Part shown: positions 10,566 to 14,447 of the stretch, piece by piece
How the letters are laid out: every line of letters begins with the position of its first letter
How positions within the stretch are numbered: the stretch's first letter is position 1
Assembly (NCBI GenBank): GCA_005878095.1
Contig: VBNH01000046.1
Coordinates: 1 to 51,551, forward strand
Reading direction: 5' to 3'
Length of the DNA: 51,551 bases
From: Gammaproteobacteria bacterium
GTDB lineage: Bacteria; Pseudomonadota; Gammaproteobacteria; Steroidobacterales; Steroidobacteraceae
Translations under genes and position numbers: made by a program
The notes under the pieces: model-generated
Told to the model about the DNA's origin: nothing
Database searches by the model: none
The model's input: the letters and a program-made list of their open reading frames with translations, nothing else

Positions 10566-11513
10566 TCAGGTGTCGTCGCGGTAGCGGCGCAGGCGGATCG
10601 CGCCGAACACCATCGCCGCGGCGACCGCCAGTCCGAGCCACAGGTTGAGATCGGTGAGGGCGGCCCCCAGGTTCAGTCGATCGAGCGCCGCGCCCAATGC
10701 GAACGCGCGCCCGCGGCCGACCTGCATGTGCCCGAACAGCGTCGGCCAGATGCCGTAGGTGCGGTAGACGAGCAGGTCACGCACGTAGTGGGTGTCGAAG
10801 GTGAAGTGCTCGACGATCTGCGCGATCACCGGGGGCAGGGTTGCCCACAGAAACGGCGTGCGCCGCGCCCAGGCCGACACCAGCAGCAGGTACGCGGCGT
10901 ACGGCGCGTACCACAGCACACCCACGATGAGGCACGCGAGCAGCGCGATCTCGGCCTTGAGCCACCCGAGCATGTCCCACCCCGGGATGGGCGGTACGCG
11001 GCCGAAGGCGGCGTTCACCTCCCAGATGCCGGTGAACAGCAGCGACAGCAGCAGCCCGAGCGCAAACACGCCCAGCGGCACCACCAGCAGCGCGACCAGC
11101 AGCTTCGACAGGACGGTCTTGTCGTCCGATACCGGCAGGGACTTCCAGAACAGGATGCTGCGGTCCTTGCGCTCCGCGTACAGGCAGTCGAGCAGGTAGA
11201 AAGCCACCACGATCAGAGACACCACCGACAGCGGCGTGGAAGCCGCGCCCTGCATGACGGCAAACATCGCCATGCCCCCGGGCCGATCGTCGCCCGACAT
11301 GTCGCCGTGCGTCAGGTGGTATTTGAGGCCCGCGACGACGGCGCCGCACACCATCAGCGCGGCGACCACCAGCGGCGCGATCCACAGCGCCCGGTGCTCC
11401 CACAGCTCGCGGCGTACCAGCATGAGGAGCGTGCCGGCGGTGCCGATGCGGGCGGCGGGCGCTGCTTCCCGCGGGCCTTCCCCGGCGGCAGCGTCGGCGA
11501 GGTGGCTGTTCAT
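10566..11513 (-). CDS. ABC-2 type transporter permease
   Basis: 315 residues with a cytoplasmic N-terminal tail and about six membrane helices. After the tail comes LLMLVRRELWEHRALWIAPL, the typical RRELWE coupling helix of YtrC/D- or NatB-like permeases, and the first helix. YAERKDRSILFWKSLPVSD after helix 2 is a hallmark of this family. It is the membrane part of an exporter with the ATPase gene just upstream; the two overlap by four bases (ATGA). The substrate is unknown. In the context of a YtrA-type repressor, export of or protection from an envelope-active antibiotic or peptide is a reasonable inference. Confidence 0.9.
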   Translation of the reverse strand: MNSHLADAAAGEGPREAAPAARIGTAGTLLMLVRRELWEHRALWIAPLVVAALMVCGAVVAGLKYHLTHGDMSGDDRPGGMAMFAVMQGAASTPLSVVSLIVVAFYLLDCLYAERKDRSILFWKSLPVSDDKTVLSKLLVALLVVPLGVFALGLLLSLLFTGIWEVNAAFGRVPPIPGWDMLGWLKAEIALLACLIVGVLWYAPYAAYLLLVSAWARRTPFLWATLPPVIAQIVEHFTFDTHYVRDLLVYRTYGIWPTLFGHMQVGRGRAFALGAALDRLNLGAALTDLNLWLGLAVAAAMVFGAIRLRRYRDDT

Positions 11514-12370
11514 GTGCTTGGTGTCCCCTGCATCTTGGCGACGAACAGGTCGGCGATCGAGGGCGTGCGCAGCTCACCGAAGCCGCGCAGCTCCGCGGCC
11601 GAACGGCCCTCGAACAGCATCGCCACGCGTCCGAACACCTCGCGCTCGTAGAATGGCTTGAGCGCGCGCGCGCGCGGCGCGGCCTCTGCGGCCACGTTCA
11701 GCTGCTGATAGCGGCCGCCGAGCTCCTCGACCGAAGAGCTCAGGGCGATGCGGCCGTGGTTGATGAAAATCACGTCGGTGAACAGGTTCTCCACCTCCTC
11801 CACCTGGTGGGTGGTGAGCAGGATGGTGCGCTCCTTGTCGAAATAATCGTTGAGGAGGGTGTCGTAGAACCTGCGGCGGTACAGCAGATCGAGCCCGAGC
11901 GTCGGCTCATCGAGCACCAGCAGGCGCGCATCGATGGCGAGGATCAGCGCCAGGTGCAGCTGCGTCACCATGCCCTTGGAGAGCTCGCGCACGCGGCTCT
12001 CCATGCGGATATCGGTGCGGCGCAGAAAGTCCGCGGCGCGCGCACGATCGAAGCGCACATGCACACCGCCGACAAAATCCAGGGCCTGGCTCACGCGCAG
12101 CCAGCGCGGCAGCACCGCCACGTCGGCCATGAAGCACACCTCGCGCATCAGCGAGTCGCGCTGCGTGCGCGGATCGAGTCCGAGCACGGTGAGCTCGCCG
12201 CGAAAGGGGGTGAGTCCGAGGATCGCCTTGAGGGCGGTGGTCTTGCCGGCGCCGTTCGGACCGATGAGGCCGACGATCCGGCCGGCTTCGACGCTGAAGC
12301 TCGCGCCATCGAGTGCGCGGGTCGCGCCGTAGGCCTTGGCGAGGCCGCGCGCTTCAATGACTGCTGTCAT
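11510..12370 (-). CDS. ABC transporter ATP-binding protein (YtrB-like)
   Basis: 286 residues. Walker A GPNGAGKTT, signature LSKGMVTQL (a LSKGM variant common in YtrB-type ATPases), Walker B LLVLDEPTLGLD and switch-region TTHQVEEVE are all present. The C-terminal ~70 residues beyond the nucleotide-binding domain are of the extended YtrB/CcmA type. The start at ATG 12370 was chosen because the alternative upstream start adds eight residues lying inside the GntR gene. The gene overlaps gntR by 17 bases and the permease by four, so all three are surely co-translated. Confidence 0.92.
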   Translation of the reverse strand: MTAVIEARGLAKAYGATRALDGASFSVEAGRIVGLIGPNGAGKTTALKAILGLTPFRGELTVLGLDPRTQRDSLMREVCFMADVAVLPRWLRVSQALDFVGGVHVRFDRARAADFLRRTDIRMESRVRELSKGMVTQLHLALILAIDARLLVLDEPTLGLDLLYRRRFYDTLLNDYFDKERTILLTTHQVEEVENLFTDVIFINHGRIALSSSVEELGGRYQQLNVAAEAAPRARALKPFYEREVFGRVAMLFEGRSAAELRGFGELRTPSIADLFVAKMQGTPST

Positions 12371-12779
12371 CTTCTCCACCTGGTGCTGTCGCACCGGCCT
12401 TGGGCGCCGGCCAGGCCGCAGGCGCTGCGGCGCCCACGCGCTGCAGTTCCTCCTGCGTCAGGCCGAGGCGCTGGATGGTGGCATACACTCTCGGCCATTC
12501 CTCCTCGAGGAAGCGCTGGCGCTCGTCCTTCATCAGCGCCTTGCGCGCGCCTGAGCTCACGAACATGCCCAGGCCGCGGCGCTTCTCCACCAGCTGCTCG
12601 TCGACGAGCTGCTGGTAGCCCTTGAGCACCGTGAGCGGATTCAGGCGAAAGTCCGCGGCGACGGTGCGGACCGAGGGCAGCGGGTCTCCTTCCTTGAGAA
12701 CGCCTTCGAGGATCATCGCTACCACCCGGTCGCGCAGTTGCCGGTAGATCGGCAGGCTGTCGTCCCACTGCGGATCCAT
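12354..12779 (-). CDS. GntR-family transcriptional regulator, YtrA-like
   Basis: 141 residues. An N-terminal winged helix-turn-helix (residues ~8-75: IYRQLRDRVVAMILEGVLKEGD, then LPSVRTVAADFRLNPLTVLKGYQQL) is followed by a short helical dimerisation tail (~80-120) and a disordered Pro/Ala end. That short tail without an effector-binding domain defines the YtrA subgroup, whose members repress adjacent ABC transporter genes. It is followed with overlap by the ATPase gene. Candidate binding sites are the inverted repeats at 13291-13312 and 12809-12824. The ligand or signal is unknown. Confidence 0.9.
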   Translation of the reverse strand: MDPQWDDSLPIYRQLRDRVVAMILEGVLKEGDPLPSVRTVAADFRLNPLTVLKGYQQLVDEQLVEKRRGLGMFVSSGARKALMKDERQRFLEEEWPRVYATIQRLGLTQEELQRVGAAAPAAWPAPKAGATAPGGEDDSSH

Positions 12780-12808: not shown

Positions 12809-12824
12809 GATTAGCCGACTAATC
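12809..12824 (-). promoter_or_regulatory. Inverted repeat GATTAG-N4-CTAATC before gntR (candidate operator or RNA hairpin)
   Basis: Perfect six-base arms separated by CCGA, 30-45 bases upstream of the gntR start and overlapping the stop codon of the small peptide gene. The core TAG-N4-CTA is shared with the stronger repeat at 13291-13312. As RNA it would form a six-pair hairpin able to slow transcription or translation between the peptide and gntR cistrons. No convincing -35/-10 pair accompanies it, so an internal promoter is not claimed. Confidence 0.4.
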
Positions 12825-13016
12825 TACCAAAACGGCCGGCTCAGGCTGGCCAAACCAGGCGTGCGTCGACTGCAGCGCCACGTGTCCGCTACTGCGGTGC
12901 GTGCCCGGCGCCTCGGAGCTTGCCTGTACGAAAGTGGCGCTCAGGGCCAGCGTGATGAGGACGGCGCCGGCGCCGCAGCTGACATCACGATAGAGCTCGG
13001 AAACGAAGGTATTCAT
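12819..13016 (-). CDS. Small membrane peptide 1 of the GntR/ABC operon (65 aa)
   Basis: 65 residues: a short polar N-terminus, one hydrophobic segment (GAVLITLALSATFVQA, residues ~17-32), then a hydrophilic His/Ser/Pro tail. It is clearly paralogous to the peptide at 13061-13213: both start MN and share the pattern LYRDxxC-xxGAxLITLxLS followed by FVQxxS and AP. AAGGAG lies seven bases before the ATG. It sits 44 bases after its paralogue and 39 bases before gntR, all on the same strand. It could be a small ABC-transporter partner, a stress peptide or an exported signal; no function is recognised. Cleavage after QASSEA is possible but weak. Confidence 0.75.
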   Translation of the reverse strand: MNTFVSELYRDVSCGAGAVLITLALSATFVQASSEAPGTHRSSGHVALQSTHAWFGQPEPAVLVD

Positions 13017-13060
13017 GGTCGGCTCCTTGACGGTCTGACTGGTTTTGGCGCTCCCCTTTT

Positions 13061-13213
13061 TCAGGCGCTCTGCGCCGACTGGGCGGCGGGGGCGACATGA
13101 AAGGGGGCGGCGGAGGTGGACTGCACAAAGCTCAGGCTCAGCACCAGGGTGATCAGGGCGGCCCCGCTGGCGCAGGTGAGGTCACGATAGAGGGTTGAAG
13201 TGAGGCTGTTCAT
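13061..13213 (-). CDS. Small membrane peptide 2 of the GntR/ABC operon (50 aa)
   Basis: 50 residues, below the usual size cutoff for gene finders. ATG at 13213 with AAGGAG seven bases upstream; stop TGA at 13061-13063. Layout: MNSLTSTLYRDLTC, hydrophobic helix GAALITLVLSLSFVQ (residues ~17-31), then a short Ala/Pro/Ser tail. Over the first ~36 residues it is about half identical to the downstream 65-residue peptide, with LYRD, a Cys at position 14, GA, LITL and FVQ conserved; the tails do not align. The paralogy and two good ribosome-binding sites argue that both are real. It is the first gene after the strong promoter at 13290-13318. Confidence 0.75.
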   Translation of the reverse strand: MNSLTSTLYRDLTCASGAALITLVLSLSFVQSTSAAPFHVAPAAQSAQSA

Positions 13214-13289
13214 AATCGTCTCCTTGGCTGTTGGGGGGTCTTGGCTCTCGGGGGCTACCTGTCGAACAGGCCGTCCTCCTTGGTGATGT

Positions 13290-13318
13290 ACTCTAGTAGC
13301 ACACTACTTGAGTGTCAA
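13290..13318 (-). promoter_or_regulatory. Sigma70-type promoter of the small-peptide/GntR/ABC operon
   Basis: On the minus strand, a perfect -35 TTGACA (13313-13318) is separated by exactly 17 bases from TAGAGT (13290-13295), which matches four of six -10 positions. Transcription would begin near 13283, giving a ~70-base leader before the first peptide. The leader includes an AAGGAGG not followed by a start codon and a small CCTGT-TCG-ACAGG hairpin. The spacer is almost wholly occupied by an inverted repeat (next entry). Confidence 0.75.
13291..13312 (-). promoter_or_regulatory. Operator-like inverted repeat filling the promoter spacer
   Basis: Minus-strand arms CTCAAGTAG and CTACTAGAG around TGTG: nine-base arms with a single mismatch. 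The repeat runs from the last base of the -10 overlap to the base before the -35, so a bound dimer would block RNA polymerase. The adjacent GntR regulator is the obvious candidate; its subgroup typically represses its own operon. The core TAG-N4-CTA recurs at 12809-12824. Binding is inferred, not shown. Confidence 0.65.
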
Positions 13319-13466: not shown

Positions 13467-14447
13467 ATGACATCCGCCGTGAACGTTGCCATCACCGGCG
13501 CCGCCGGACAGATCGGCTATGCCCTCGCCTTCCGTGTCGCCTCGGGTGCGCTGCTCGGGCCGGGCAGGCGCGTGAACCTGCATCTGCTCGAGATCACCCC
13601 GGCGCTCGCGGCGCTGCAGGGCATGGTGATGGAGCTGCACGACTGCGCGTTTCCAACACTCGGGAAGGTGGTGCCGACCGACGACGCGCGCCTCGCGTTC
13701 CGCGACTGTCAGGTGGCGCTGCTGGTCGGCGCGCGCCCGCGCGGCCCGGGCATGGAGCGCAAGGACCTGCTGCTCGCCAACGCGCAGATCTTTTCCGTGC
13801 AGGGCCGGGCGCTCAACGAAGTCGCCGACCGCAACGTGAAGGTGCTGGTGGTCGGCAATCCCGCCAATACCAACGCGCTCATCGCCCGAGCGAACGCCCG
13901 CGATCTCAATCCGCGCAACTTCACGGCCATGACGCGCCTCGATCACAACCGCGCGCTGTCACAGCTGGCGCACAAGACCGAGACGCACGTGAGCGAGATC
14001 CGCCGCATGATCATCTGGGGAAATCACTCGGCCACCCAGTACCCCGATCTGCGTCACGCCGAGGTCGCAGGCAAGCCGGCCAAGTCCCTCGTGACCCAAC
14101 AGTGGATCGAGGAGACGTTCATTCCGGTGATACAACAGCGCGGCGCGGCCGTCATCAAGGCGCGCGGCGCCTCTTCGGCCGCCTCGGCCGCCTCGGCCGC
14201 GATCGACCACATGCACAGTTGGCTCCATGGCACGAGCGCGGGCGACTGGGTCAGCATGGCCGTGCCGTCCGACGGCAGCTACGGCATCGCCGAGGGCGTC
14301 ATCTACTCCTATCCGGTCACCCTCAGCAACGGCGAGTACCGCATCGTGCCGGGCCTCGCCGTGGATGACTTCAGCCGCAAGCGCATGGAGGCGACGCACG
14401 CCGAGCTGCGCGAGGAGCGCGAGGGGGTCAGGAGCCTGCTCGCCTGA
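13467..14447 (+). CDS. mdh: NAD-dependent malate dehydrogenase
   Basis: 326 residues; catalyses malate + NAD+ to oxaloacetate in the TCA cycle. It belongs to the LDH-like, cytosolic-eukaryote/Xanthomonas-type branch. Visible are the Rossmann motif GAAGQIG (residues ~10-16), the mobile-loop [14 protein letters not shown] with substrate-binding arginines, NPANTN, LDHNRA, and the catalytic His in WGNHS. A short GCCTCGGCC triplication encodes Ser-Ala-Ser-Ala within the conserved GASSAASAA segment. The start ATG has no strong Shine-Dalgarno; the preceding 150 bases are shared with the divergent small-peptide promoter. No terminator was seen before fadE. Confidence 0.97.

Follow-up and report, generated by a model that had tools for sequence, protein, structure and literature searches.

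The two small ORFs described here, sORF1 and sORF2, stand, by their gene layout, at the head of an operon for a YtrA-type repressor and an ABC transporter in a member of the Steroidobacteraceae (contig VBNH01000046.1; the window, i.e. the whole stretch of DNA that was analysed, comprises 51,551 nucleotides). Both are most likely single-pass membrane peptides, judging by predicted location, and we assign a probability of about 0.5 to the reading that they are accessory membrane peptides of the transporter, freed from repression together with it. The second peptide ends in a segment, WFGQPxPA, which is the part of sORF2 most constrained at the protein level, followed by codons that are fixed at the DNA level.

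Two related small ORFs ahead of a repressor and an ABC transporter

The genes following the candidate operator are, in order, sORF1 (13061..13213, minus strand), sORF2 (12819..13016, minus strand), a YtrA-type GntR regulator of 141 aa (12354..12779, minus strand; Pfam GntR, 7.8e-12, residues 12-74), an ABC transporter ATP-binding protein (11510..12394, minus strand; Pfam ABC_tran, 2.2e-20) and an ABC-2 type permease (10566..11513, minus strand; Pfam ABC2_membrane_5, 3.6e-06). The ATPase and permease genes lie downstream of the regulator on the same strand with overlapping ends, and the arrangement of regulator and ABC genes as one operon, judged from the gene layout, is that of the YtrA subfamily. 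This subfamily is described as comprising short GntR regulators in which the N-terminal winged helix is followed by a C-terminal part reduced to about 50 aa (PMC4494728), and the window regulator is of this short form, with 67 residues remaining after the GntR domain.

Upstream of the small ORFs lies a candidate YtrA-type operator, AGTG-N16-CACC (13282..13305, unstranded), which covers the -10 of a candidate operon promoter recognized by its sequence pattern, TTGACA-N17-TAGAGT (13290..13318, minus strand); the small ORFs thus fall within the presumably repressed operon. The candidate operator has the long palindromic form of the YtrA subfamily, with GT/AC far from the centre. The pattern [AG]GTG-N16-CAC[CT] was found upstream in 21 of 22 loci of the genus and in 61 of 69 other loci of the family, with averages of 1.6 and 2.8, respectively, in 20 rounds of shuffling, and a few of the matches (e.g. 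at L128) look like chance. On the other side of the operon, an ORF running in the opposite direction (13467-14447) presumably encodes a malate dehydrogenase-like protein. Such a gene also adjoins the operon at L075, L078 and L080-L082, and at L074, L076 and L077 its place is taken by an ORF that we take to be sigma-factor-like.

The sequence-only reading had described tandem duplicated membrane peptides sharing LYRDxxC, GAxLITL and FVQ, and the ORFs, their coordinates and lengths, the ribosome sites and the common motifs were all found as described. The product of sORF1 is a 50-residue peptide with an N-terminal hydrophobic segment and a short variable tail, and that of sORF2 comprises 65 residues, with an N-terminal helix, a variable linker and a conserved C-terminus (WFGQPEPAVLVD); in both, AAGGAG precedes the ATG. 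The peptides share 59% identity across residues 1-37 (BLASTP E 4e-16), so their likeness is not due to chance, and as far as sequence can tell the ORFs are tandem relatives and real genes with strong ribosome sites. It is doubtful that one of them would escape usual gene calling through its length, as had been claimed, since common gene finders apply a minimum length of 90 nt and sORF1 has 150 nt.

An AlphaFold model of sORF2 consists of a single helix spanning residues 2-33 with no structure beyond it (mean pLDDT 69; 81, 90 and 88 for residues 1-10, 11-20 and 21-30), and the hydrophobic stretch covers approximately residues 15-31. Neither peptide matched Pfam or NCBIfam at E 1 in scans that took in five window proteins, and PHROGs gave nothing for sORF1 and a best E of 0.094 for sORF2. 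A likeness to lactococcin A, the best PDB sequence match, was not significant (E 0.43) and was discarded. A lipoprotein was likewise rejected: a lipobox is recognized by the position of its Cys relative to the hydrophobic stretch, and Cys14 stands ahead of that stretch, so there is no lipobox at this residue. A cleaved secretion signal was also considered; inspection of the sequences showed that the would-be cleavage site is adjoined by Pro in several tails.

Phenol-soluble modulins, the peptides linked to PmtR/Pmt in Staphylococcus aureus, are not known to carry a membrane anchor. By analogy with them, the small peptides of the window could be substrates that the ABC transporter of the operon exports, or signals that the repressor senses. 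A precedent exists in PmtR, a YtrA-subfamily repressor that is reportedly displaced by the peptides exported through its ABC transporter (PMC5080381), and the NCBIfam models for PmtR and PmtA rank second for the window repressor and ATPase, although far under the cut-off (48 bits where 200 are required and 116 where 350 are required, respectively). The window peptides, however, bear their own membrane segment and would thus need no dedicated exporter, and we regard this role as improbable.

Occurrence and selection

A search with sORF1 matched 24 of 99 genomes at E 0.1 or better, all from one genus and including that of the window, the weakest match (G026, E 0.1) not being convincing. The repressor is present in 25 of the 58 genomes of this genus; the operon is absent from 33, many of which are incomplete. 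Each of the 23 genomes with a close repressor encodes sORF2 (24 copies, two of them in one genome), and none was seen by eye in the approximately 500 nt upstream in the two of 25 genomes whose repressor is more distant. The sORF2 loci include 22 from metagenome-assembled genomes, three of these being labelled as Steroidobacteraceae. A pattern search identified nine sORF1-type copies in at least eight of the 23 operon-bearing genomes of the genus, a lower bound as the upstream stretches are incomplete at some loci; one genome has two such copies besides sORF2. At L013/L089 (G031), the small ORFs stand three in tandem rather than two. A single duplication as the origin of sORF1 was considered and set aside, the tree of approximately 40 residues being poorly resolved and requiring four label changes. 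With a profile of sORF2, matches extended to other genera, mostly through the helix part; of the order's 396 genomes, 47 gave a match at E 0.01 or better, a count that includes the genus itself and whose weaker matches are doubtful.

Outside the genus, 50 of 69 other family loci have a hydrophobic ORF (28-130 aa, preceded by a ribosome site) before the repressor, compared with 1.4 (range 0-4) in shuffled sequences and one on the reverse strand. These first ORFs vary widely in sequence, with an FVxST-like motif at 16 of the 69 loci and lengths of 100-120 aa with repeats such as LPEVVVTAPR at others, and they keep the position of the small ORF but not WFGQPxP. At several loci (L122, L125, L136, L140-L143 and L159), the first ORF upstream of the same repressor encodes an exported-looking protein of 110-121 aa; several of these carry repeats such as DLGEVVVTAPR / LPEVVVTAKR, which we take to be reminiscent of TonB boxes.

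Substitutions were counted by the Nei-Gojobori method, for sORF2 both in seven hand-picked pairs using each sequence once and in all 276 pairs, many of the latter being near saturation. In sORF2, pN/pS was 0.39 (7 pairs) and 0.66 (276 pairs) for codons 1-28, 0.26 and 0.36 for FVxSTxxPG, 0.63 and 1.00 for the linker, and 0.00 and 0.13 for WFGQPxPA. In sORF1, codons 1-37 gave 0.37 in two close pairs and 0.52 in 36 pairs, and the tail, for which the alignment is uncertain, gave 1.18 in 36 pairs and 3.13 in the two close pairs, the latter resting on 1.8 synonymous and 18.2 nonsynonymous differences. The sequence-only reading had proposed selection on the N-terminus and helix and named dN/dS of the N-terminal codons as a check, with a near-neutral ratio speaking against its claim. 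The ratios below 1 in sORF1 codons 1-37 and sORF2 codons 1-28 instead point to purifying selection.

Two further parts of that reading stand in narrower form. Within the genus, Cys14 is kept in 23 of 24 sORF2 and all nine sORF1 sequences, but among the 69 other family loci just 11 show a Cys in the first 30 residues of a small ORF. The tails, which had been called unrelated and diversifying, are indeed unrelated between sORF1 and sORF2, and diversification fits the sORF1 tail and the sORF2 linker; the end of the 65-residue peptide is on the contrary conserved among orthologues, and tail diversification is rejected for this end and not supported as a rule for both copies.

Two kinds of constraint at the end of sORF2

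The conserved end of sORF2 is made up of two adjoining parts. The WFGQPEPA codons (12834..12857, minus strand) are under protein-level constraint: in the seven pairs, the WFGQPxPA segment has eight synonymous and no nonsynonymous differences. The final codons after it are GTT (23/24), TTG, GTA and GAT (24/24) and the stop TAG (23/24), and the encoded VLVD shows zero synonymous changes within the genus. GAT is not a rare codon, but GTT, TTG and GTA make up only 1.0%, 1.4% and 2.6% of their synonymous sets in six window genes and 8.6%, 6.2% and 8.6% in the remainder of the sORF2 sequences. VLVD and the stop are thus fixed at the DNA level.

These codons and the stop are overlapped by an element, here designated P2 (TTTTGGTAGATTAG; 12819..12832, minus strand), which resembles an extended -10 and is itself constrained at the DNA level. 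The pattern TGSTANANTA, starting 38 to 96 nt before the repressor, was found at 23 of 23 loci in the genus and 37 of 69 other family loci, with averages of 0 and 0.12, respectively, in 50 dinucleotide shuffles. P2 is present at 35 of 50 other family loci with a small ORF versus 2 of 19 without (Fisher p 9e-6, an optimistic value since the loci are related), and at those 35 loci it lies inside the 3' end of the ORF in 13 cases and past the stop in 22. The extended -10 pattern is TG-N-TA-N-A-N-T, and the promoter label rests on likeness to it, as no -35 box stands out ahead of P2; we refer to P2 as a promoter-like element and not as a proven promoter. In genus g30 (L112, L113 and L115-L118), the small ORF ends in TAA and P2 follows directly, in frame and itself ending in TAG, which at L118 is replaced by TAC.

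An imperfect palindrome (GATTAGTCGGCTAATC; 12809..12824, unstranded) spans the sORF2 stop, and 22 of 23 genus loci keep its core TAGYNNRCTA at the same position. Other genera have a second GSTA 13 bp after the first. The palindrome was rejected as a second YtrA operator, as it is without the AGTG-N16-CACC ends. A conserved RNA hairpin or terminator before gntR was also discarded (z averaged -0.72 across 23 loci and ranged from -2.9 to 1.8, for the stretch beginning 60 nt before P2 and ending 12 nt into gntR).

Given the fixed VLVD codons and stop, the C-terminal conservation might arise wholly from constraint on the DNA of P2 and its flank, with the peptide a dispensable leader. The somewhat lower pS of WFGQPxPA (0.23 vs 0.29-0.37 elsewhere in sORF2, 7 pairs) would fit such a view. 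The absence of nonsynonymous changes among the eight differences in this segment would, on the other hand, have a chance of about 4e-6 from the site counts (S 35, N 133), and P2 occurs in other genera without the WFGQP-coding flank, making this explanation very improbable. A conserved short-ORF C-terminus can, it appears, be both a protein motif, here WFGQPxPA, and a DNA element giving the last codons and stop, and conservation of a short ORF should not be taken as protein conservation without a test of synonymous sites.

A conserved C-terminus just before the repressor could also act during translation. As a regulatory nascent peptide of the arrest or leader type, sORF2 would engage the membrane-insertion machinery through its helix, WFGQPxPA would exert its effect within the ribosome tunnel, and the translation or transcription of the repressor and transporter genes would be set by whether ribosomes stall or are released close to the stop. 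Fujiwara et al. (2024) give four criteria for monitoring-substrate arrest peptides (PMC10987492). Two of them, an N-terminal membrane segment and a conserved C-terminus, are seen in sORF2, the latter in the genus only, and a third, a spacer of more than 30 residues, is a borderline case (counted from the end of the helix, 32-34 to D65 but 28-30 to A61, where the protein-level motif ends); the fourth, a position upstream of secA, secDF or yidC, is not seen, as gntR and ABC genes lie downstream. Arrest at a stop codon has precedents in NAP-stop, NSP-stop and DGMK-stop (PMC10987492). The lack of a clear Shine-Dalgarno sequence upstream of the window repressor would also agree with such regulation. 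Against it, sORF1 and most other genera have no conserved C-terminus beyond the DNA element, and the hairpin values given above are not convincing.

Small ORFs of a second gammaproteobacterial family, f26 (likely Xanthomonadaceae), bear on the same question. With one of them as query, matches at E 0.01 or better were obtained in 58 of 149 genomes, although the weaker matches are doubtful. Among the 30 matches listed (L198-L227), 28 have an ORF before the repressor, and all 28 carry [MV]PYFSFAxxL near the end, a count that is biased because the query carried that end and the filter required a loose version of it. The motif is mostly followed by RPRS or RPRG. These ORFs have a hydrophobic N-terminus and stop a few bases ahead of the repressor start, and their other near-invariant C-terminus, MPYFSFAQxLRPRS, would favour a nascent-chain role; the selection of the ORFs by likeness of their ends weakens this support. 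Synonymous change is furthermore low at the C-terminus (pS 0.056 vs 0.176 in the body), so the conservation may be partly at the nucleotide level, for example in the repressor's ribosome site. Taken together, we consider arrest by sORF2 rather unlikely. A broader version is distinctly unlikely. In it, the YtrA-type repressor/ABC operons of the Steroidobacteraceae and f26 would begin with membrane-targeted nascent peptides of a class that changes from lineage to lineage, and the C-termini of these peptides (WFGQPxPA; MPYFSFAQxLRPRS) would stall or pace translation immediately ahead of the repressor gene. If true, the reporting of membrane insertion or of the state of the envelope by such peptides would extend beyond the protein-localisation genes of the described monitors.

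Proposed role and relation to known systems

For the accessory-subunit reading, at even odds, the evidence from sequence comparison is the presence of sORF2 in all genomes of the genus with a close repressor (23/23), pN/pS below 1, the operator dyad and the small ORFs at 50 of 69 other family loci. The repressor on its operator over the -10 would keep the operon off, and upon its leaving, sORF1, sORF2 and the transporter would be made together. Each peptide would insert as one helix with its N-terminus inside. The outside tail of sORF2, with WFGQPxPA, would most likely dock on a partner, for which the permease is a first guess; since other genera keep the position of the small ORF but not WFGQPxP, this partner would be genus-specific. 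In such a scheme sORF2 would be an accessory or tuning subunit of the transporter and sORF1 a duplicate retained for its helix part. The final sORF2 codons would be fixed for a separate reason, as part of the internal promoter-like element P2, which may supply the repressor and transporter genes with a basal transcript of their own. Speaking against the accessory role, the ytrG product of Bacillus subtilis is, according to the published description, probably no component of its transporter (PMC8060467).

Three known systems share some features with the window operon. The PmtR/Pmt system of S. aureus likewise joins a YtrA-type repressor, an ABC transporter and small peptides in one circuit, but the modulins come from their own psm operons (PMC5080381), unlike the peptides of the window. 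With SecM, MifM, VemP, ApdA and NAP-stop, sORF2 has in common an N-terminal membrane signal, a loose spacer and a conserved C-terminus upstream of a regulated gene; it differs from these monitoring-substrate arrest peptides in having a GntR repressor and an ABC transporter downstream and no RAPP-like motif (PMC10987492). The 54-residue BmrB leader of B. subtilis bmrBCD is also a short ORF heading an ABC transporter operon, but is reported to act by way of a terminator-like structure that lies within the BmrB coding sequence (PMC7828314), and no convincing hairpin was found in the stretch tested here.

Word searches, which covered few subscription papers, found no proteobacterial counterpart, tandem copy, tail motif or promoter-like overlap in print. 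That a YtrA operon can begin with a gene for a small membrane protein is already known from B. subtilis, where the first gene of the ytr operon encodes YtrG (45 aa), a protein with no known function (PMC8060467, PMC12772383). To judge from the present comparison, dozens of genomes have lineage-specific membrane peptides under selection at the place of this gene, and in one type of them the tail motif is sharp enough for testing. As with YtrG, a small membrane ORF stands first in the window operon, upstream of a YtrA repressor and ABC genes and between operator and repressor gene, with both membrane location and operator predicted. YtrA of B. subtilis binds AGTGTA-13bp-TACACT (PMC8060467), and the candidate operator of the window is of the same long-dyad type. 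No secondary promoter is known for the B. subtilis ytr operon according to PMC12772383, and its phylum differs from that of the window. The likeness to YtrG is one of position, and in contrast to YtrG as described in the available text, the window operon has a tandem copy and a conserved tail overlapping a promoter-like element.
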